Source: a virus
Length of the DNA stretch: 23,862 nucleotides
Virus record (IMG/VR): IMGVR_UViG_3300022690_000151
Location: 1 to 23,862 of that record
Strand: one strand, 5' to 3'
The notes beneath the pieces were generated by a model that was not told the DNA's origin, ran no database searches, and saw only the letters and a list, made by a program, of their open reading frames with translations. The first letter of the stretch is position 1; the number at the start of each line of letters is the position of its first letter. Below are positions 6,607-23,862 of this stretch, piece by piece. The position numbers were made by a program, and so were the translations under genes.

Positions 6607-7584
6607 TTAATTAAACCCCAATACTCTGACTTGAGAAACATTGGTATAACTTCCGGGATCATTATTTGTGAAAGTCAAACTAGTTATTCGAGCCGTCCCT
6701 ATGCTATAAGTAAAATAGTTTAATTGTCTCTCTGGAGCCGTAAATTCATCAGGGGCATCTGTTTGAACAGTTTTACTAAATCCCATTTTTGTATGGTTAA
6801 GTGTATCTTCGATATCAATTATAATTAATGAGTGCTCGCTGACTCCTCCCACATCTAACTCTATTCCAGATTGATTTGTGCCAGTAACATCAGACGCTCC
6901 GTTCTGACTCCTCCTCGTTGCGTATTCAGTGGACGTATCTCCGTTGATAGTCATTACCGTATCAATAGGGCCTCCTCCGTTAGCGTGCAAATAAACATAT
7001 ACTCTTAGATATCGTCTAGCCGAGAAATTTACTGTTATAACATCAGTGTCGGCACTCGGTGATTCGTCAGCAAGATCCTCCCAAACTCCTCCGGCTCCTC
7101 CTCCGGGAATTGTTACGTCAGTTCTATTTGCTCCAGGATTATCAACGGCTGTCACTCCGGCTCCAATGAAATTAAAAGTCGGTTGCTGAGGGAGTGCCAC
7201 GCCTTCGTCTTGAATAGTTTGATAGAAATCTATGTCAGCCGGGAGCGTAGCCCAAGCCGGGAATCCTCCCACGACAGTTAAGACTTGGCTTGGAGTGCCT
7301 ATTGCTAAACCGTCCCATGAAGGCGAGCCAGTGCCAAAAATTAAGTCTCCGGCTACGACTGGATGAGCGACAGTATCTTGATTCTGTGAACCGTCAAGTA
7401 AATCGTGAGGCTGAACATTACCTGGGATATTTACATTAGTTCTATTGTTGCCCGGATCATCTGTCGCTGTCACTCCAGTCCCAATAAAATTAAGGGTTGT
7501 CTGAAATGGTAGAGCGATTCCTTCGTCTTGAATTTCTTGTAAGATATCAAAGAAAACATTGTAACCTTGAGACGGACTTGGCAT
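6607..7584 (-). CDS. Fibre protein with duplicated IQDEG repeat and jelly-roll C-terminus
   Basis: This 325-aa protein has two copies of a known phage-fibre repeat, at about 11-54 and 120-161. Each reads like IQDEGhALPxQxTxNFIGxGVTAxDxPGxNRT followed by V-x-I-P-G. A beta domain follows at 165-325. It contains RRYLRVYVYLHANGG and YATRRSQNGASDV and ends VSQVRVLGFN, matching the domains of the 358-aa and 844-aa proteins. The N-terminus MPSPSQGY is nearly the same as that of the next upstream protein (MSFPSQGY), suggesting a shared docking peptide. The ATG overlaps the upstream TAA (TAATG). The predicted role is a fibre or decoration protein. Confidence 0.8.
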   Translation of the reverse strand: MPSPSQGYNVFFDILQEIQDEGIALPFQTTLNFIGTGVTATDDPGNNRTNVNIPGNVQPHDLLDGSQNQDTVAHPVVAGDLIFGTGSPSWDGLAIGTPSQVLTVVGGFPAWATLPADIDFYQTIQDEGVALPQQPTFNFIGAGVTAVDNPGANRTDVTIPGGGAGGVWEDLADESPSADTDVITVNFSARRYLRVYVYLHANGGGPIDTVMTINGDTSTEYATRRSQNGASDVTGTNQSGIELDVGGVSEHSLIIIDIEDTLNHTKMGFSKTVQTDAPDEFTAPERQLNYFTYSIGTARITSLTFTNNDPGSYTNVSQVRVLGFN

Positions 7585-7940
7585 TATATTCTCTCCAATA
7601 CTCTAGCTATACGAATCGTTCCGGCCGTGTCTGATCTAAAATTAATCAAGTCCGTGCTTAATACTGGAATCTCAAACGAATTAAGTGTCTCGGCCTCGAT
7701 CTTGTTATTGTTGTTTAGCAAAAACCAATTTGCCCCACTGTCATAAGAGACAGAGATGTTTGCTCTTTTACTAAAAGCAAAAATAAAAAGTAAATCACTT
7801 CCAAATCCAGGATCAACTTGAGGGATAATGTCAGAGGCGAACCATTCTTCGTCAACAATTACAGCGACATTAGAAATACTAGATTTTAGAATAGGGATTG
7901 GGACGGTTGACGGTATGTAACCTTGAGACGGAAAACTCAT
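7584..7940 (-). CDS. Single-domain beta decoration protein (118 aa)
   Basis: The protein begins MSFPSQGY, like the 325-aa neighbour. Residues 45-118 form a beta domain (VSYDSGANWFLLNNNNKI ... INFRSDTAGTIRIARVLERI). This domain also occurs twice in the 253-aa protein and once in the 108-aa protein at 15754. The conserved core is a D/S-G-x-x-F/W strand, an Asn-rich turn, and a final hNFRTxxxGThRhhRV strand pair. There is no signal peptide or membrane segment. The ATG overlaps the upstream TGA as ATGA. It probably coats the virion or forms part of a fibre base. The family relation is visible directly; the role is inferred. Confidence 0.75.
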   Translation of the reverse strand: MSFPSQGYIPSTVPIPILKSSISNVAVIVDEEWFASDIIPQVDPGFGSDLLFIFAFSKRANISVSYDSGANWFLLNNNNKIEAETLNSFEIPVLSTDLINFRSDTAGTIRIARVLERI

Positions 7941-8698
7941 GCTAGTTGAATCACTCTCAAGAATCTGATAGTGCCTCCGTTAGAATGTTGTAAGTTAAAC
8001 AAGTCTCCGTCCTCTACAACCACATCAAAGATACTAGAAGCTTCGGATTTTAAATTAACTGAGTTGTTAAAGTCCACAAAGTTAGTGCCGTCTAATGTAA
8101 AACGCAAACGTCCAGTAGCACTACTTGACCATTGAATACGGTAGATAACAGCGTCACCGGGAGACGTGCCAGTTGGAGGCAAGTCAACGCCAGAGAGATC
8201 AGTGTTTGACGCATACACTGAATTTGTAAGACTGAGAATTATCGTGCCAACTGGAGTGCCTTGAGGATTAGCGACAGTTACTTGCAAAGGAGTAACAGAG
8301 CCATTGATAATAGGAACGTCACAAGTGACTGGACAAATATCGACTTGACTAGCTATTCCTCCGGCCACAGTTCTTCTTTGTATATCCTCTGGAGCGATTG
8401 AAACAAGAATACGAAAAACAGTGGCTCCTCCAGTTGTCCTCAGATTGAATGAGTCTTTATCATCAGCCTTGATATTGCAAATTACCTCAGTATTGGCCAC
8501 GGTAGTTATGAGAGGGAAAAATGAAACTCCTCCGTCTAGGCTATACTCAAACACGCCTGAATCAGTCGTGATAATCGAAATATTCCAGATTGCATCAAAG
8601 CCCCATCTAATATCAGGAGGCAAATTAGTTGGAAAAATTGGAGCTAATGGAAGATAAACTCCGGAAGCTTTACCTCTGGAGTAAAGGTGAAATGCCAT
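7937..8698 (-). CDS. Double-domain beta decoration protein (253 aa)
   Basis: Two copies of the same beta domain are visible. The first is at about 60-110 (FEYSLDGGVSFFPL ... DSFNLRTTGGATVFRILV), the second at about 195-253 (LRFTLDGTNFVDFNNSVNL ... FNLQHSNGGTIRFLRVIQLA). A linker between them carries a CPVTCDVP segment. The domain matches the 118-aa and 108-aa proteins, so this gene looks like an internal duplication. It is the first gene of the unit 8698-6364. The ATG lies 25 nt after the TATA of promoter copy 3, and no Shine-Dalgarno is seen, which fits a leaderless message. It is likely a capsid- or fibre-associated decoration protein. Confidence 0.75.
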   Translation of the reverse strand: MAFHLYSRGKASGVYLPLAPIFPTNLPPDIRWGFDAIWNISIITTDSGVFEYSLDGGVSFFPLITTVANTEVICNIKADDKDSFNLRTTGGATVFRILVSIAPEDIQRRTVAGGIASQVDICPVTCDVPIINGSVTPLQVTVANPQGTPVGTIILSLTNSVYASNTDLSGVDLPPTGTSPGDAVIYRIQWSSSATGRLRFTLDGTNFVDFNNSVNLKSEASSIFDVVVEDGDLFNLQHSNGGTIRFLRVIQLA

Positions 8699-8732: not shown

Positions 8733-9389
8733 TTAGTTAAAGTCAGCGTCAGTTAAACGCCTTCTCCTAAAGTAATCGATCCATCTTTGAGACAGACTTC
8801 TTGCTCCGTATCGTTCTTGGATTCGATGAACATCATTATCATTGAGTGCGTTCTTTTTTTTACCGAGATTAAAAGAAGGATACATGATCGACTCTTGGCT
8901 TGTAGTGTCATGTCTCAAGCCGAGGGAGTGGCCAAACTCGTGAATCATAATAGCTGTCAACGGAGGATGAGCTAAGTCTTGGAAATATGCAGACGGAACC
9001 CAATCCCATGTCTCATCATTGATCTCAACGTCTCCGGAGATATTCCCTTGGCCTGGGAACCAAGCATGAGCTAAAACTCCAGGCGAGGCAAATTTAACAA
9101 GAGGTTGAAATGAAACATTGAAATCGACATGAGCTGTCATATTGCGTTCCCTACGAAATTTTAATTTATTAATCCTTAATTGCCAAACTCTCAATGCGAC
9201 AGTGATAGCTCTGATTTGTTGTCGTCCTGGAATATCTGGCGACAGATTGTTTAATCGATAAGAAATGTCTCCGTCTGGCCAACTGTGAGGCCATTCATCA
9301 ACGCCAGGAATTGTCTCAGCAAACTGGATCTTCGTATATGGAAGTTGATCACGCATTTCGGCTGAACAATACACAAACTCGTTTGGCAT
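8733..9389 (-). CDS. Matrixin-like (metzincin) zinc metalloprotease
   Basis: This 218-aa protein is essentially a bare matrix-metalloprotease catalytic domain. It contains the full zinc motif HEFGHSLGLRHD (His150, Glu151, His154, His160), a Met-turn SIMYP (Met169), and the upstream LAHAWFPGQGNISGDVEIND segment (106-125). In matrixins that segment carries structural zinc/calcium ligands before an E-T-W. The early DISYRLNNLSPD and AITVALRVWQ segments are also typical. I see no signal peptide and no Cys-switch propeptide. The C-terminus is basic (YFRRRRL). The gene sits alone behind its own TATA candidate, between a two-helix membrane protein and the fibre unit. Likely roles are a virion-borne or released protease that cuts host surface protein, or a structural maturation protease. 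Confidence 0.92.
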   Translation of the reverse strand: MPNEFVYCSAEMRDQLPYTKIQFAETIPGVDEWPHSWPDGDISYRLNNLSPDIPGRQQIRAITVALRVWQLRINKLKFRRERNMTAHVDFNVSFQPLVKFASPGVLAHAWFPGQGNISGDVEINDETWDWVPSAYFQDLAHPPLTAIMIHEFGHSLGLRHDTTSQESIMYPSFNLGKKKNALNDNDVHRIQERYGARSLSQRWIDYFRRRRLTDADFN

Positions 9390-9410
9390 AAAAAAATTGG
9401 GTAATCCTAA

Positions 9411-9418
9411 GTTATAAG
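9411..9418 (-). promoter_or_regulatory. TATA-like promoter of the metzincin gene
   Basis: The minus-strand sequence CTTATAAC lies in the 42-nt gap before the metzincin. Its TATA begins 27 nt before the ATG, the same spacing as the conserved promoter elements, but the flanks differ (no AACACTTG). No Shine-Dalgarno precedes the ATG, only a T7 run. The divergent element may give this gene separate timing. Confidence 0.4.
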
Positions 9419-9431
9419 AGATACTCAGGAT

Positions 9432-9614
9432 TTATGTGGACTTGCCAGAGGTTCCTTTAACTATTGCCTCGATTTTGTCGCCAATGGCTAATGCTACAAT
9501 CGGAGCAGTTAAAGCAATTATATGAACTGGATCAGTTACGATTCCTTTGATTATGATTAAGGCTACTAGGCCACCATAAACGAGGATTCCTAAATGACGA
9601 GTGCGAATGTTCAT
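9432..9614 (-). CDS. Small two-helix membrane protein, holin-like candidate
   Basis: This 60-aa protein has a short basic N-terminus (MNIRTRH), a first hydrophobic segment at about 8-26 (LGILVYGGLVALIIIKGIV), a short acidic turn (TDP) and a second segment at 31-45 (HIIALTAPIVALAIG). The tail is charged (DKIEAIVKGTSGKST). Size and topology match small holins, but they also match many unrelated small membrane proteins. Its position between two predicted proteases, in a late gene cluster, makes a role in membrane permeabilisation or export plausible. A degenerate copy of the promoter element lies 24 nt upstream. Confidence 0.7.
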   Translation of the reverse strand: MNIRTRHLGILVYGGLVALIIIKGIVTDPVHIIALTAPIVALAIGDKIEAIVKGTSGKST

Positions 9615-9631
9615 AATCGCTCTCAGTGGTA

Positions 9632-9646
9632 AAGTTTTAAAGTGTT
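9632..9646 (-). promoter_or_regulatory. Degenerate copy of the 15-bp promoter element
   Basis: The minus-strand sequence AACACTTTAAAACTT matches 11 of 15 positions of the conserved element. It lies in the 37-nt gap before the two-helix membrane gene, and its TATA-equivalent position is 24 nt from the ATG at 9614. It may be a weaker or differently timed promoter. Confidence 0.4.
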
Positions 9647-9651
9647 ACTCA

Positions 9652-9975
9652 TTACTCATGCCAGTAAGAATAATCATAGCACTTCCAATGATCATTTAGC
9701 TTAACGTAACAATCAGAATAGAGATATGCGTGAGTAATCTCGTGCCACAAAATAATCATGCCATAATAATCCAAGGCTTGCATACTGGCCTCATGGACTA
9801 TGACTCTCTTTTTGATCACATCGGCACAGCCAGAGGTATGATAGCCTTCGACTTTAGATTTTGGACAAACATTATCTACTGACTCTTGACTTGTTGTAAT
9901 TAATTTCCAATCACAATCATATCCAGAGCCAGCTATAACACAAAGTTGCATAGTAAAAAAAAGAAGTGGGATCAA
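9652..9975 (-). CDS. Secreted HExxH putative zinc metallopeptidase
   Basis: The protein has 107 aa from a TTG start at 9975 that overlaps the upstream TGA as TTGA. This start gives a classic hydrophobic signal or anchor segment at residues 1-16 (MIPLLFFTMQLCVIAG). A longer in-frame start at 10062 would overlap the upstream gene by 91 bases and lose that N-terminal position. The mature part has a helix carrying WHEITHAY (His78, Glu79, His82) and a Cys-rich composition (Cys12, 21, 37, 50, 89, 99) that suggests disulfides and an extracellular location. The third zinc ligand is not certain; Glu or His near the C-terminus (DYSYWHE) are candidates. It is a metallopeptidase by motif only. It belongs to the surface/protease block. 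Confidence 0.7.
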   Translation of the reverse strand: MIPLLFFTMQLCVIAGSGYDCDWKLITTSQESVDNVCPKSKVEGYHTSGCADVIKKRVIVHEASMQALDYYGMIILWHEITHAYLYSDCYVKLNDHWKCYDYSYWHE

Positions 9976-10601
9976 AGGAGTATAAACTCGATTGAGTCCG
10001 TTTTTGCATCGATAGTTATGGACACGGTATATTTGCCGATCAAGGCGTTGTTTGGAATCCAAGCCTCTGATATGTCGCCATCAGATAGAGTCTGACCGAA
10101 CTTGTCCTTGACAAAGTTTCCATCAGGTGCTTTGATAGTTATCAGAAAAGTTTTCTCAGTGAACTCAGTTTGGCCAGTGATAAGAATTGCTCCCACATCT
10201 CTTGGATATCCAGAGGGTTTAGCGTTGAACTTGTTATCCTCGATTTTTAGGTTGAGGTCTATTGTGCTTACAGTTGGTTGAGACGGTGTTGGTAATGTTG
10301 TAACATCTCCTTGTGCTTGCAGTAATGTTACCTTGCCTTGTATGCCATCAACCTTCTCATCTAGTTTCTCAAAGATTTCAGTTAGTGCATCATTATGAGG
10401 TTTCCATTCGTTCTCTGATACAAAGTTTGCATTAAGCCATTCTATCATCGTGCCTTCGCCAACTTCTCGCCAGTTGTATTTGTCAGGAGTTACTTGGTCG
10501 TTCAGTTTCATCATGTTCTGTCCGGCTAATGCTAATGCCAAGACAGCGATTACGGTTGCGACAAAGGCTACTACTAGACCGTAGTTGATTCCTTTAGTCA
10601 T
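9972..10601 (-). CDS. Membrane-anchored surface protein with macroglobulin-like domain
   Basis: This 209-aa protein has an N-terminal membrane helix (about 5-27, INYGLVVAFVATVIAVLALA), a polar region with a short coiled coil (about 68-96), a Pro/Thr-rich linker (TLPTPSQPTVST) and a C-terminal beta domain (about 112-209). That domain reads like a macroglobulin/MG2-type strand set: ILITGQTEFTEKTFLITIKA, then P-D-G-N-F, then IGKYTVSITID. Such anchored domains are typical of thaumarchaeal surface proteins, which hints at host mimicry or a host-derived gene. The ATG at 10601 has AAGGAG at good spacing and overlaps the stop of the 32-aa gene (ATGA). An earlier in-frame ATG at 10637 lacks such support. 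Confidence 0.75.
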   Translation of the reverse strand: MTKGINYGLVVAFVATVIAVLALALAGQNMMKLNDQVTPDKYNWREVGEGTMIEWLNANFVSENEWKPHNDALTEIFEKLDEKVDGIQGKVTLLQAQGDVTTLPTPSQPTVSTIDLNLKIEDNKFNAKPSGYPRDVGAILITGQTEFTEKTFLITIKAPDGNFVKDKFGQTLSDGDISEAWIPNNALIGKYTVSITIDAKTDSIEFILL

Positions 10602-10696
10602 TTCTTTTTCTCCTTTTGTGTGTAGGTTATATCCCACTCTACCGTTGCCTCAATCTTCATTTCTTTATGGCAGTAAGGACAATCTATGTAGGTCAT
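10598..10696 (-). CDS. 32-aa CPYC zinc-knuckle-like micro-protein
   Basis: This small gene fits exactly between its neighbours. Its ATG overlaps the upstream TGA (ATGA) and its own TGA overlaps the downstream ATG (ATGA). It begins MTYIDCPYCHKEMKIEA and ends in a Lys-rich tail (TYTQKEKKK). The C-P-Y-C-H motif is half of a zinc ribbon, so metal binding would need a dimer or a partner. Its tail also carries the AAGGAG that serves as ribosome site for the next gene. No function is known. The double ATGA overlap is the main reason to trust it. Confidence 0.6.
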   Translation of the reverse strand: MTYIDCPYCHKEMKIEATVEWDITYTQKEKKK

Positions 10697-11859
10697 TCTC
10701 TAACTACCTTCGGGACACAATGATTCAACCATACTGGAAATTCATGTGTGCCGATTTTGTGTTGGTAAATGTAGAGAAAATTGTCGCATTGGAGTTGTAG
10801 AATGTCGCTGTATGTAATGTCGTCCCAATTCTTTAGGATGTGTTGTTCGTACAAACTCAATGGGCATTTTTCTTCTGCCCATACTCCTACTGGAGCTGGT
10901 TGTCCAAACACTTGACACCTAATTCCTGGAGGCTGAAATCCTCTATTGACTCCGGTAAATTCGGCATCTGGATCTTCAAACTTTCGTTCTTGAATTAGTC
11001 TGTCTCTGAGTTCTTCCATTTCTTGTTTCTCATCTGCAATATCCTTCGGTGTTACTGGATCAGTTTCTACCATAGCGTCTGATTGATCAGTTACTTTTTT
11101 AGCTAGTGGATGTTCTGGCCCTCTACCGAGATAATCTGTCCCGGCCAAGTCAGCCATGTATCGGTTCAACTCAAAGGCTCCAATTAGATTCATGTCAGCA
11201 TAACGTTTCATTATCCTACACTCCTCGATTGCTTTGAGCATCTTACCAATGATAGGTGATTGTGATAAGTTATCCCTTATCTGAAATTCCCATCTAGTTT
11301 GATCAGAGTAACCTTCTATTTCTGCTTGCTCTTGGTAAGCTCCGTAAGCTCCTAATCCAGTTCTACAAGTTGCTAGTGTTTTTATTGCTGATTCGATTTC
11401 TCGTTCTTCTCTTGTGAGTGGTTCTTCTGGCTCAGTAGGTTCCAAATCTGGCAAAACGTCAGCTCTAGGTTCTGATATGTCACCTTGCTCAATGAAGTGC
11501 TTGATCATCTCTGCTAAATCAGCGTTGTGTTGTGGTATTAGAGAAATCGAAGTTGGCACTTCTGTCTGATTGATTTCAGCCATTACATAATCAGGCAAAA
11601 ACCATTTCCAGTTACAAGTGAATGTTACATGATTGCTTGCTGATAGAAACACACACCAAGAATCATCAGATTCTTGAGGAAGTGGGAGATCAACTTGTTC
11701 GGCATACGCCAAGCCAAGTCCTCCGATTGATAGCATAGTTGCGATCAGTATGAGTCCGAGTTTGTTCTCAACAAAGTCTTTGATTGTCATTTCTTCGTCA
11801 GTTGCATCTTGTTTTATTTTCTTATGCGTTTTGTTAGAAACGCTTATTGTTTTGGTCAT
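10693..11859 (-). CDS. Membrane-anchored/secreted protein with RHH-like N-terminus
   Basis: I do not recognise the family of this 388-aa protein. The first 33 residues (MTKTISVSNKTHKKIKQDAT and onward to a DFVENK end) resemble the strand-helix of ribbon-helix-helix or antitoxin-type proteins. A hydrophobic segment at about 34-53 (LGLILIATMLSIGGLGLAYA) ends in an AYA-EQ site that could be cut by signal peptidase. The outer part has scattered Cys residues, an acidic proline-rich linker (PDLEPTEPEEPLTREERE, near 145), helical regions and an acidic coiled segment (DIADEKQEMEELRDRLIQER). It opens the surface/protease block. The ATG context TCAAGCATG matches that of the fibre gene at 6328. Confidence 0.75.
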   Translation of the reverse strand: MTKTISVSNKTHKKIKQDATDEEMTIKDFVENKLGLILIATMLSIGGLGLAYAEQVDLPLPQESDDSWCVFLSASNHVTFTCNWKWFLPDYVMAEINQTEVPTSISLIPQHNADLAEMIKHFIEQGDISEPRADVLPDLEPTEPEEPLTREEREIESAIKTLATCRTGLGAYGAYQEQAEIEGYSDQTRWEFQIRDNLSQSPIIGKMLKAIEECRIMKRYADMNLIGAFELNRYMADLAGTDYLGRGPEHPLAKKVTDQSDAMVETDPVTPKDIADEKQEMEELRDRLIQERKFEDPDAEFTGVNRGFQPPGIRCQVFGQPAPVGVWAEEKCPLSLYEQHILKNWDDITYSDILQLQCDNFLYIYQHKIGTHEFPVWLNHCVPKVVRE

Positions 11860-12082: not shown

Positions 12083-12325
12083 TTATCCCTTTTTGGATTT
12101 TTTCTTATTCTGAGACTTTTTTGACTCTGTTATGTTTTCAGCTACAACAATTTTTGGAGCGACAGTTTCTTTGCGAGTGTCGCTAGTCCAATGAAGATCC
12201 GATTGCTTGCCCTCACAAGGACGGCCTATCATCTGGCCTCTTGCGTGATCTATTAGATCGTCAGCTTCTTCCTGGGTATTAGCCAGTGCTACGGCCCCAC
12301 ATCGTTGACAGCTTAGAGTTCCCAA
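12083..12325 (-). CDS. Small CxxC zinc-binding protein (80 aa)
   Basis: The start is TTG at 12325. A stop codon precedes it directly in frame, so no longer version exists, and an AGGTG site lies about 8 nt upstream. The protein has CQRCG at residues 6-10, an acidic helix (QEEADDLIDHARG), then a PCEGKQSDLHW segment whose Cys and His could complete a zinc site. The C-terminus is Lys/Ser-rich and basic (KKSQNKKKSKKG). It follows the major capsid gene at a 9-nt distance and ends the unit. A small nucleic-acid- or capsid-binding role is possible. No family is recognised. Confidence 0.7.
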   Translation of the reverse strand: MGTLSCQRCGAVALANTQEEADDLIDHARGQMIGRPCEGKQSDLHWTSDTRKETVAPKIVVAENITESKKSQNKKKSKKG

Positions 12326-12334
12326 TCAAAACAC

Positions 12335-13540
12335 CTATACATTAAATGCCGTGATTTTGAACGCTCCGTCCTCGAACGCTTGTTGAACATCGAAACGAAT
12401 TACTAAGTCAGTGTTGTAAAGTCCTCCGACAGTTAAGTCAAAGTTCTCTAGTGTCAAGTCCTCTCGTAGTCCAGTTACCTGAGCTACGTCACGTTTTGTT
12501 ATCATCACAGTTCCTTCTGCAATCTGAGGTGTCTCCCAGACATTCTTAAGCCCTAAACTGGAAGCTAGTCCAGAATTATTTACAACGTCTTTGTTGTCAG
12601 TTGGCCCTAAGATGAATCGGGATAAGAACGGATAAGATCCACTTGCTCCGGTTGACGTTGCTATTGCTAGAAATGCGTCAGCCGGGTTGATGAACATTGT
12701 ATCGGCTCTATTCCTCTGAGTTCCAGGGAATCGTGATCTGATAACATTAGACAAAGCTTCAAACTCGCTCTGAACTGGAGTAGCTAGATCAAGATTTGCT
12801 TTTGTGTCCGTGTTGTTTGTTGTTGTTGCGATAAGATTATCGATTTGTCTTTTACCAACAAGGAAGTAAATCATGTTACCAGCATTTTTGAGTGGTTGTT
12901 CAACTGCAAGGAAGTTGTTGTCTTTTACATCGTTACGCTCTACTTGGATCGTTCCTCTAAAGCTGTTCTTTGTATTGCTACAATCAAGCTCTATTGGTTC
13001 AACCTTACCTCCGATTACTGGAGGTTTTCCTCCGGCCTCTGCGAAGATATTGATAGTTGGATTATCTGTTTTAGATCCTCCGACAGTATCAGTGTATTGC
13101 GTTCTTGGGACATTAACTTTAGGTGTGTCCATATCAATTAGTCTGTCGTATTGTTTCCAATCACTCCAGGGTTCAGCTCCTTCGATTATTTCGTCTGCAA
13201 TTTTTAGTATTGACAAAGTGTTTGGCACAGCGACAGTTTCTTGCAAAGCGTGGCCTCCGATATACGGATTTGTCTTTGCATAGTCACCTATGCGAATACC
13301 ATATTGTCTAAACCAAATTTCGTTTAGATTTGGATTTAATCTCATATTCTCTAATGAGCCTTGAGATTTGTCGAAGAAGGCTGATAAAGGAGTTTCTCGG
13401 ATTGGTCGCCATGTGTCCATAGGTCGGCCAATTTGTCGATTTGCCTCAGCTCCAAGATTCAAAGCTTCTCTAATGTGTGCCATCTCTGGCAAGTCCATAA
13501 GAGATTGTCGAGTTACCTTTTCAGAGTTGTATTTTACCAT
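12335..13540 (-). CDS. Major capsid protein, HK97-fold
   Basis: This 401-aa protein has the features of an HK97-type major capsid protein. There is a helical N-terminal region, an acidic stretch, an extended loop (TPKVNVPRTQYTDTVGG at about 135-150), then a Gly-rich segment leading to VEPIELDCSNTKNSFRGTIQ. An A-domain region carries MFINPADAFLAIA and LGLKNVWETPQIAEGTVMI, the 'identify target, set value' strands usual in these proteins. A final IRFDVQQAFEDGAFKITAF strand closes it. It has no obvious cleaved delta domain, since scaffold is a separate gene at 14081. The ATG follows the stop of the decoration gene by 2 nt, with AAGGAG 14 nt upstream. It lies in one unit with the decoration protein behind promoter copy 4. 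Confidence 0.88.
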   Translation of the reverse strand: MVKYNSEKVTRQSLMDLPEMAHIREALNLGAEANRQIGRPMDTWRPIRETPLSAFFDKSQGSLENMRLNPNLNEIWFRQYGIRIGDYAKTNPYIGGHALQETVAVPNTLSILKIADEIIEGAEPWSDWKQYDRLIDMDTPKVNVPRTQYTDTVGGSKTDNPTINIFAEAGGKPPVIGGKVEPIELDCSNTKNSFRGTIQVERNDVKDNNFLAVEQPLKNAGNMIYFLVGKRQIDNLIATTTNNTDTKANLDLATPVQSEFEALSNVIRSRFPGTQRNRADTMFINPADAFLAIATSTGASGSYPFLSRFILGPTDNKDVVNNSGLASSLGLKNVWETPQIAEGTVMITKRDVAQVTGLREDLTLENFDLTVGGLYNTDLVIRFDVQQAFEDGAFKITAFNV

Positions 13541-15044: not shown

Positions 15045-15761
15045 TTATGGAATATTATCCCTTGTTGATTCTATTGACCATAAATCAATTTCAATATCTC
15101 TAAAACTAGCATCCAGTGTATTAATCGAAGTAAAAATTCCCAGACTATTAACTACTCCACTTGGAAGATTTGTGGTATGAGTTGCTACAATAGAGCCGTT
15201 AATTTTGAAAACTTCATTAACGCCAGTCGTATGAACTATCTCAAAATTTGTAGAAGTTGTTAAAAGTGCAGTCACGCCAGTATCGGTTTCTGTTTTGGTT
15301 CCTCCGTTCACAGAATTAGCAAACCAATTAGCTGATCTGTTAGGATCAAAAGAAAAGTACGAAGCTTCTTGAAAATCACTTTCAGCAGTTGCAATAGTAG
15401 TTCCATCTATGGTATCTTCGTTTGCCATACCTAGAATAATAATAGTTTGAGCTAGCGTGCTATTTAGACTTGCAATTTGTTTCATTGTCCAATTATCAGT
15501 ATTAGTATTAATCCCTCCGTTATCTTTAGTTGTTAATCCGGCCGTTCTTCCGGCTACATTGTTTGTAGATATTTGAGCAGTTCCATATCTTTGTCGTATT
15601 CCGGCCGGAGCGTCAATTAAAGCACTTGTGCCAAATACAGTATATTTATCTAATATTCCTGGAGAACTTTGAAAAATGAAATCTTCAAGGAATATGTAAT
15701 TTGTAAATGGATCGGAAGGCAAAGGAGGAGGAGGAGCTCCTTGAATTGGGAATCTAGCCAT
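15045..15761 (-). CDS. LamG/concanavalin-like beta protein (238 aa)
   Basis: After a Pro-rich N-terminus (GAPPPPLPSDPF), the protein is one beta-sandwich-like domain: EDFIFQSS start, NWTMKQIASLNSTLAQTIII, ASYFSFDPNRSANWF, STNFEIVHTTGVNEVFKING, and a closing ASFRDIEIDLWSIES strand. The layout resembles the lectin-like repeats of the 844-aa fibre (strand 'FEIxRT..' followed by 'xDIExW'). It could be a capsid-bound glycan-binding protein rather than a tail component, since it is encoded between protease and scaffold. The ATG overlaps the upstream gene's TAG by 8 nt. No enzyme motif is visible. Confidence 0.7.
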   Translation of the reverse strand: MARFPIQGAPPPPLPSDPFTNYIFLEDFIFQSSPGILDKYTVFGTSALIDAPAGIRQRYGTAQISTNNVAGRTAGLTTKDNGGINTNTDNWTMKQIASLNSTLAQTIIILGMANEDTIDGTTIATAESDFQEASYFSFDPNRSANWFANSVNGGTKTETDTGVTALLTTSTNFEIVHTTGVNEVFKINGSIVATHTTNLPSGVVNSLGIFTSINTLDASFRDIEIDLWSIESTRDNIP

Positions 15762-16080
15762 CGAGATCAGCCACTAAACGGCCACGCACAGAAATTCCTC
15801 CGGCATCTGGAGTCCTAAAATTAATGGCACTGTTTGGATCTGCAAAAATATCAAATTGAGAAAATCCTTCTGGAATTGGATTGCCTCCGTTAATTAGGAA
15901 AAATAACGAGCCATCTATTGTGAGCTCGACTGGAACGGAATTTCCGGCTCCAGAAACTTGAAGCTGTAAAACAAGATCAACGGCTCTTGAGGATCTAACT
16001 TGAGGCACATAATCGGGAGTTAGCCATACGACATTTTGAGCGAAGGTTCCTTGAAACTCTACTCTTGTTAATAATGCCAT
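15754..16080 (-). CDS. Single-domain beta decoration protein (108 aa)
   Basis: The whole protein is one copy of the beta domain also found in the 118-aa and 253-aa proteins: VELTIDGSLFFLINGGNPI, FSQFDIFADPNSAINFRTPD, and GGISVRGRLVADLDG. It lies more than 7 kb away from those copies, on the far side of the capsid genes. No signal peptide or membrane segment is present. It is first in a two-gene unit. The ATG lies 25 nt after the TATA of promoter copy 6, with no Shine-Dalgarno. It is likely a head-associated decoration or fibre-docking protein. Confidence 0.7.
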   Translation of the reverse strand: MALLTRVEFQGTFAQNVVWLTPDYVPQVRSSRAVDLVLQLQVSGAGNSVPVELTIDGSLFFLINGGNPIPEGFSQFDIFADPNSAINFRTPDAGGISVRGRLVADLDG

Positions 16081-22367: not shown

Positions 22368-22511
22368 TCAAATTAAATCGTCCAAGTGTGGAATTTTTAG
22401 ATCGTTACAAATTGCGACAAAACTTATCTTTGCTAACAAATCTTTTGAGGTAACACGAGTCTCTTTAATGTAGTTTCTAGCGTTTTCTTTTTCTCGTGCC
22501 AAATATCGCAT
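22368..22511 (-). CDS. 47-aa gene overlapping the terminase 3' end
   Basis: The frame runs from ATG 22511 to TGA 22368 and encodes MRYLAREKENARNYIKETRV, then a helix DLLAKISFVAICNDLKIPHL. A GGGAGG lies just before the ATG and would suit a TTG start three codons later better. The first 35 nt overlap the terminase coding end, while the remaining 109 nt lie in a stretch with no other gene. Helical, no Cys motif. It fills the otherwise empty gap and is probably real. The function is unknown. Confidence 0.5.
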   Translation of the reverse strand: MRYLAREKENARNYIKETRVTSKDLLAKISFVAICNDLKIPHLDDLI

Positions 22512-23862
22512 ACCTCCCACTGTCATAATTTGTGTCAGCTATAATAGCATATATCAAACTCATCACGGAATCTTTTGGATGATTAAATTCCTTGCGAGCT
22601 CTCTGTCTTGGATCTTCGACAGTCTGATCGATATCCTCATCGATATCTTTTCGTGTCGTTGCACAAAAATCGTCCAAGAGAAAATCGCATTGATAGTCTA
22701 GCTTGTGAGGTATGATTAGTTTAGTTCGTTTGAGAGCTTCTTCGTTTGGCCTAGTTGGATGAGAGACGTATGTGCCAAGAAAATCTATAAAGTTTTGAAT
22801 CACTGTCGTCTTATCGATCTGTAATCGTCCAAGCTCTGTGCCGTGCTCATCAGTGTCTTGTTTGTATTTCATCTCAGGCTTTGTCTCATCTCCAATAGTT
22901 CGACAACCCATAAACAAACGTCTCCCTAGTCCTTTGAACTTAACATCATGCGAGTCTCGTCCTCCGTCTTGAATTACTTTGACTTGAATAGCTCCGTATC
23001 CAAGGTCGCCAACTGCATAATCCACATTGTAACTTTTTCCAAGTTCTGCGATATATCTTGACTGATCAAGTTGATGTTCTTGAGGTCGAGACTCGATCCA
23101 CGCAATCTGATAACGCTCAGATTTTCGCCATCGAATAAGAACTGTAATAACGGTTTTTCCTTGTGCTTTGCCAGAGCCAAAGTCAACTCCCATGACAACT
23201 CGGATTTCATTACCATAACACGCCTTGAGGAAATTAACTTCTTTAGGAGATAAAAGTGTCAAGTAATTGTTATAACAAGCACTGACCATAGCCGGAGTGA
23301 TCGGCCTTCGTTCGGCTTTGTAAAACGTTCCGTAACAGTGTGATTGTAAAACAGAGTGAGGAGAATATTTCTCTTGATACTCAATGGAAAACTCTGGATT
23401 AATGTTATGAAGCTGTGCGTCCTCAATAGTTCTTGGAATCATTGGAAAAATTGTTTGAGGTAAATGATAGCCTCTATGCTGAGTATTCTCTGGCTTTTGT
23501 GCAATCCATCGGCCATTTAGAATAACCTTCAATTCATCAGCGTCATTGATGATAAAGCCTTGAGCGTCTCGCTCTATTTTCTCATACCAAAACTTATCCT
23601 CATAAATCCACTCACGCTGATCTGTTTTCTCCCATTCTTTGTGATACTCACTCCCGGCCTCTCCTCCAATGCCGAGCATCCAGAAACGTCCGTGTGTTTG
23701 AAACAGTGCATATTTACCTCTGACTAAAAATTGAATGTCTTGATATTGTGCCTCATCCAGTATTAGAGCGATTAATGATTTGCCCTCTACCTTCTTGTAT
23801 TGTCCTTCGTCTGTCACTAGATAAATAGCTGAATCATTGACTAAAGAAAACTCTCCGATGTT
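22477..23862 (-). CDS. terL: Terminase large subunit, N-terminal part missing
   Basis: The frame is open to the right window edge, so the true start and the Walker A region are outside; the GTG at 23817 is just an internal codon. The 461 visible residues start within the ATPase. IALILDEAQ is a Walker B motif with its catalytic Glu (about residues 31-39). The C-terminal nuclease has its three acidic sites: MGVDFGSGKAQGKT (Asp near 227), AVGDLGYGAIQ (Asp near 286) and HPKDSVMSLIYA (Asp near 431). These make an RNase H-like metal site that cuts DNA during packaging. The protein ends in a basic tail. It cuts and pumps DNA into the procapsid through the portal. Confidence 0.93.
   Translation of the reverse strand, partial: NIGEFSLVNDSAIYLVTDEGQYKKVEGKSLIALILDEAQYQDIQFLVRGKYALFQTHGRFWMLGIGGEAGSEYHKEWEKTDQREWIYEDKFWYEKIERDAQGFIINDADELKVILNGRWIAQKPENTQHRGYHLPQTIFPMIPRTIEDAQLHNINPEFSIEYQEKYSPHSVLQSHCYGTFYKAERRPITPAMVSACYNNYLTLLSPKEVNFLKACYGNEIRVVMGVDFGSGKAQGKTVITVLIRWRKSERYQIAWIESRPQEHQLDQSRYIAELGKSYNVDYAVGDLGYGAIQVKVIQDGGRDSHDVKFKGLGRRLFMGCRTIGDETKPEMKYKQDTDEHGTELGRLQIDKTTVIQNFIDFLGTYVSHPTRPNEEALKRTKLIIPHKLDYQCDFLLDDFCATTRKDIDEDIDQTVEDPRQRARKEFNHPKDSVMSLIYAIIADTNYDSGRYAIFGTRKRKR

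Follow-up and report, generated by a model that had tools for sequence, protein, structure and literature searches.

How do tailed viruses leave archaeal cells that are enclosed in a lattice of protein? Most archaea possess a protein S-layer instead of murein, and a 2015 review proposed that archaeal viruses employ a holin together with an S-layer protease, at a time when neither a holin of an archaeal virus nor an S-layer-degrading enzyme was known (PMC4456609). The consulted passages of a survey of lytic proteins of viruses, from 2025, cover endolysin, holin, spanin, pE, Pei and PVAP and include structural holin candidates in archaeal viruses; an S-layer protease is not among the entries of those passages (PMC12596118). 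A matrixin or metalloprotease acting in the lysis of archaeal viruses was looked for in the literature, with no result, an absence that is no proof of novelty.

This question is raised by a 23.9-kb IMG/VR fragment of a tailed virus (the window, i.e. the whole stretch of 23 862 nucleotides that was analyzed), in which every clear gene lies on the minus strand. According to the original prediction, six of these genes form a single block in which two proteases and a small membrane protein would replace a lysis cassette. All six proteins are indeed present at the predicted place, and are given here along with the capsid and terminase genes (L and G numbers below refer to other viral contigs).

8733..9389, minus strand: M10 matrixin-like metalloprotease of 218 aa, without a signal peptide (PF00413, AlphaFold, Foldseek)
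9432..9614, minus strand: two-helix 60-aa membrane protein (type A), putatively holin-like, with two predicted transmembrane (TM) segments
9652..9975, minus strand: small secreted or anchored Cys-rich zincin (HExxH) of 107 aa, with a TTG start and 10 homologues
9972..10601, minus strand: p209, anchored surface protein with an N-terminal TM segment and a probably beta-rich C-terminal part
10598..10696, minus strand: 32-aa CPYC mini-protein (p32), delineated by its reading frame and 4-bp overlaps with p388 and p209
10693..11859, minus strand: p388, Sec-exported or N-anchored Cys-containing protein, from a family of 15 with conserved cysteines
12335..13540, minus strand: probable major capsid protein, the lineage marker, named from position and without a family hit
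22477..23817, minus strand: terminase large subunit, a context gene (phrog_675, E 3e-14)

One further window protein matches a head maturation protease (phrog_595, 5.5e-5), and the portal, like the major capsid protein, was named from genome position. The capsid protein connects the window with 48 related viral loci, at 56–97% identity. RadA is encoded in G048, which also carries the cassette described below (NCBIfam, 1.9e-72), and in G042, the capsid of which is 75% identical to that of the window, whereas PCNA is found in G021 (67% capsid identity) and one MCM among the window relatives. The presence of RadA and PCNA in the relatives suggests that the hosts are probably archaea, as originally supposed. 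Scans of genome collections with the capsid alignment and with a viral RadA recovered neither a provirus nor a host, most relatives contain no tRNA and hence give no host hint, phage records yielded no relative of M10 or of the capsid protein, and Rfam produced no match on the window. Several other features of this virus group can be recorded. An 80-aa zinc-ribbon-like protein (12083-12325, minus strand) is encoded directly after the capsid gene and occurs in 27 related loci, mostly at the same position; p253, p118 and x108 (7584-8698 and 15754-16080, minus strand) apparently belong to one small family with several copies in the group; and one related archaeal virus contig carries a match to the TIGR-Tas RNA-guided endonuclease (NCBIfam NF052498, 7e-51).

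The block is tightly packed. In the direction away from the capsid gene, p388, p32, p209 and the small HExxH protein are joined by three 4-bp overlaps, followed by gaps of 37 bp between the small zincin and the 60-aa membrane protein and 42 bp from there to the matrixin. Leave-one-out HMMs recover every tested window family from its relatives (E-values of 9.1e-18 for p388, 1.2e-10 for the HExxH protein, 2e-9 for p209, 4.7e-11 for the 60-aa protein and 1e-83 for M10). The co-conservation that the prediction called for is also apparent, with the gene order recurring in some ten contigs, including one with an otherwise unrelated backbone. Specifically, p388, (p209), small zincin, TM protein and leaderless zincin follow each other in the window, L031, L013, L019, L040, L010, L005/L007, L006 and G048, and the small zincin was not detected in L015 and L017. 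The whole cassette is present in G048, which otherwise resembles the window in nothing but TerL (29%), so the cassette moves as a unit. Together, the leave-one-out recovery and the recurrence in many contigs indicate that the block is more than a chance assemblage.

The block also comes apart into two parts. The TM protein and M10 occur with no p388 or small zincin nearby in L073/L074, G047, L146, L148/L149, L140 and L152, and, conversely, p388-(p209)-small zincin occurs without M10, elsewhere in the genome, in G007, G038, G039 and G042. Judging by gene content, then, the block consists of two separable modules, one that combines the two-TM protein with a leaderless enzyme and one that combines p388, (p209) and the secreted mini-zincin.

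The enzyme of the first module was originally described as a metzincin, and it proves to be a true M10 matrixin that is not secreted by itself. PF00413 matches over the whole domain (E 4.9e-25, 88.7 bits versus a cut-off of 24), and phmmer matches the protein to stromelysin-1 (1e-16). The AlphaFold model, built from 20 sequences, has a pLDDT of 91.5 and a pTM of 0.90; an earlier model from 10 sequences was poor (pLDDT 49.6) and was set aside. The best PDB matches of the model are catalytic domains of matrix metalloproteinases (MMPs), with an E-value of 2.7e-13 for MMP-13 in Foldseek and, in the VIA comparison with MMP-1 (1cgl), a Z of 21.1 and 1.5 A over 159 residues. Given the agreement of Pfam, phmmer and a confident model, the family assignment and the matrixin fold are secure, and protease activity is predicted. 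The zinc site HExxHxxGxxH (H150, E151, H154, G157, H160) is invariant in 20 M10 homologues. With homologues down to 20% identity, the alignment contains only ten invariant columns, and those beyond the zinc site are D89, F94, G119, N124 and a single cysteine within the first 16 residues, to be read against a baseline of a quarter of the ORFs of at least 150 aa having any cysteine in their first 30 residues.

All 20 M10 homologues lack a signal peptide, as judged by low N-terminal hydropathy, and M10 is therefore expected to stay in the cytosol. Both the PRCGxPD prodomain motif and a hydrophobic leader were sought in M10 and neither is present, in contrast to a classical secreted MMP. A cysteine switch, in which the invariant Cys8 silences the cytosolic enzyme, is nevertheless plausible because the N-terminal cysteine is invariant and because the proenzyme structures align further towards the N-terminus: the chains of 1slm and 1su3 align from residue 14 of the model and most mature chains from about residue 31. 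Of the 48 related records, 34 gave no M10, though many are fragments. An M10-like protein of 271 aa that does bear a signal peptide is encoded at L138:2278-3707, in divergent orientation to an adjacent 41% relative of the L005 zincin.

The most constant companion of M10 is a small membrane protein. With TM segments called from hydropathy alone, 14 of the 18 loci have a small TM protein encoded immediately upstream of M10, compared with 14 of the 307 other genes (4.6%; Fisher p 8e-14, a value that overstates independence because the loci are related). The count rises to 15 of 18 when a miscall in L013 is corrected, the TM gene there having been missed because the long M10 start overlaps it; exceptions include G034, with the TM gene downstream of M10, and L039, where it is four genes away. 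The type A orthologues of the window protein (L019, L040, L146, L148, L149, L140) invariably lie directly before M10. The slot is also occupied by types B/C/D, which are linked by profile comparison, and by E and F, with no detectable relationship between A, B/C/D, E and F, while two further TM proteins (L010, L011) are unassigned. Apparently, at least four mutually unrelated TM families share the slot before M10. On the M10 tree, the eight TM types require 11 changes, and types A, C and F must each have changed at least twice, given the well-supported branches. Searches for similarity to holin families gave no Pfam match for the 60-aa protein of the window, no match to the PHROGs holin families among the nine small TM proteins scanned, and no tblastn match for two small TM proteins in phage records.

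The enzyme is exchanged as well. In L005, L006 and L007, the spot of M10 is taken by an unrelated HExxH protein that is likewise leaderless and has no Pfam family, and the TM type that precedes this replacement is the TM type of L013. In G038 and G039, which lack M10, the neighbour of the small TM gene is a beta-helix-like protein, also leaderless, that is perhaps a glycan-directed enzyme in the M10 slot. These beta-helix-like proteins (253/270 aa; L131:16688-17764, minus strand, and L122:5617-7171, plus strand) adjoin the TM gene or are one small ORF away from it. A 76-aa zincin-like ORF with the motif HETIHxAIDKA precedes the TM protein and M10 by a few genes at L146:748-978 and L149:3247-3477.

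In the second module, p388, p209 and the small zincin each contain an N-terminal hydrophobic segment (weak in one zincin). The description of p388 as anchored or secreted agrees with its Sec-type hydrophobic segment ending in AYA/E, which in the window is preceded by a ribbon-helix-helix-like stretch, in place of the plain signal-type N-terminus of most relatives. This stretch spans residues 1-34 (11757-11859, minus strand) and is also seen at L095:7834-7942 (plus strand); in G048 it forms a 35-aa ORF of its own, which overlaps the beginning of p388, and L031/L004 have a zinc-ribbon-like sequence in its place. With p388 as the query, a profile search of the PDB returned no informative match (E 0.2), and family searches with p32 gave no match above threshold. 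Homologues of p209 are found beside p388 and the small zincin in L031, L004, G048, G007 and G042; the protein has an N-terminal anchor and a probably beta-rich C-terminal part, and its designation as macroglobulin-like finds no backing in Pfam, which gives sub-threshold hits only. The predicted secreted Cys-rich HExxH protein is present, with HExxH invariant across the alignment of 10 homologues, but its start is most likely the TTG at 9975 and not 10062, because the resulting sequence (MIPLLFF...) matches the relatives and yields a 4-bp overlap with the p209 stop, as in most of them. The best PDB match in its profile search is MJ1213, a 110-residue archaeal minimal metalloprotease, aligned over the HExxH region with an E-value (0.067) too weak to place the protein among the minimal gluzincins (MJ1213/selecase).

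Taken together, these observations lend reasonable, if far from complete, credence to the view that archaeal tailed viruses use the block as a protease-based cassette for egress (lysis). Co-conservation partly supports the predicted replacement of a lysis cassette by proteases and a membrane protein, with lysis itself being inferred, but the picture is not one of two secreted proteases: M10 is leaderless, and the two-TM protein with M10 therefore resembles a holin with an endolysin. It is this holin/endolysin-like arrangement, with a protease as the enzyme and an S-layer in place of murein, that leads to the egress reading, and, since the pairing of TM protein and enzyme recurs with exchanged partners in many viruses, both related and unrelated, it is probably a means of exit from protein-coated cells. 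As the prediction had it, no peptidoglycan hydrolase is visible, Pfam finding none among the scanned proteins of the 23.9-kb fragment; because the window is a fragment, a further lysis gene could be located elsewhere. Other points that weigh against the egress reading are the lack of a holin match for the tested TM proteins, the related records in which M10 was missing and the displaced TM genes of G034 and L039.

For the egress cassette we infer a membrane lesion, the S-layer as substrate, late timing, latency of the enzyme and a role for the exported module. The 60-aa two-helix protein would accumulate in the host membrane and open a holin-like lesion; the leaderless M10 would be synthesized in the cytosol and retained there, possibly in a latent state owing to its invariant N-terminal cysteine, and would then escape through the lesion and cleave the proteinaceous S-layer. 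The translationally coupled second module (p388 and p209 with the small zincin) would be exported and, on the outer side of the membrane, would probably weaken the S-layer lattice or detach it. A more elaborate and still tentative version is a three-part egress machine with an exchangeable holin-like protein, a cytosolic protease held latent by a short cysteine switch up to its passage across the membrane, and an exported module of p388, p209 and the mini-zincin that would be deployed beforehand and have an outer role like that of a spanin; matrixins, other zincins or beta-helix enzymes would fill the enzyme slot in turn, depending on the host surface layer.

The chief rival to egress, though weakened, is a tail-borne entry protease, i.e. 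a matrixin that would open the S-layer from outside at infection, with the exported proteins doing something else. In the capsid-gene lineage, M10 directly precedes presumed tail or fibre genes, which fits a virion role; moreover, surface-degrading phage enzymes are often virion-bound, and in a study of flavophages a metallopeptidase was suggested to serve in entry or escape (PMC8776804). However, M10 is a single-domain protein, with PF00413 followed by about 20 C-terminal residues and tail-attachment parts not evident; the TM-A and M10 pair of L146, L148 and L149 resides among non-structural-looking genes, not beside tail genes; and the constant neighbour of M10 is a small membrane protein rather than a tail protein. 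An entry function thus appears unlikely.

The M10-free occurrences of p388-(p209)-zincin described above lie away from structural genes, as would be expected if p388, p209 and the secreted zincin remodel the surface and block superinfection, with M10 maturing or trimming them. This explanation leaves unaccounted for both the tight pairing of the leaderless M10 with exchanged small TM proteins and the loci with M10 and a TM protein in which p388 and the zincin are not nearby (L073/L074, G047, L146, L149), and has to be considered quite improbable. The absence of a leader would also suit a cytosolic protease that degrades host proteins during takeover, anchored or inhibited by the TM protein, a small partner that could tether it. 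Yet an unrelated zincin replaces M10, or a beta-helix-like protein adjoins the TM gene, and such exchange of enzymes suggests that the target is a barrier in the envelope, different from host to host, rather than a single cytosolic substrate, so that host takeover seems very remote.

The egress cassette can be compared with several known systems. The hypothetical archaeal holin with an S-layer protease (PMC4456609) has the same parts, and the block is a concrete candidate for it. The holin-endolysin cassettes of bacteriophages share with the block a small protein of two or three TM segments beside a hydrolase without a leader, genes that in several cases overlap slightly, independent exchange of both parts and movement of the cassette between backbones; here, in contrast, the enzyme is a matrixin or other zincin, the tested membrane proteins resemble no known holin family, and the hosts are probably archaea. 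As with a holin, a small protein with two or more predicted TM segments lies beside the proposed lytic enzyme; as with an endolysin, a leaderless enzyme lies beside a holin-like gene, but its domain is M10 only, not a peptidoglycan hydrolase. The PeiW/PeiP pseudomurein endoisopeptidases of methanogen viruses are likewise archaeal virus enzymes that open the cell wall, but they act on pseudomurein and no holin has been identified for them (PMC4456609), whereas here a zinc protease has a TM partner. The PVAP pyramids of SIRV2 and STIV also provide egress through the S-layer by a small membrane protein; set apart by description, they involve no protease, and a 10-kDa protein forms seven-sided pyramids (PMC4456609). 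With matrix metalloproteinases and karilysin (M10), the viral enzyme shares the fold, HExxHxxGxxH and an N-terminal cysteine reminiscent of the cysteine switch, but it is not secreted, lacks a classical prodomain and has a basic C-terminal helix conserved in near homologues.

The exit of tailed viruses from S-layered archaea is an open question, for which the block supplies named, conserved and testable candidate genes. It also yields a search rule for such cassettes, namely, a leaderless zincin with a small TM gene immediately in front of it, and provides enzymes that may be able to cleave the surface layers of archaea.
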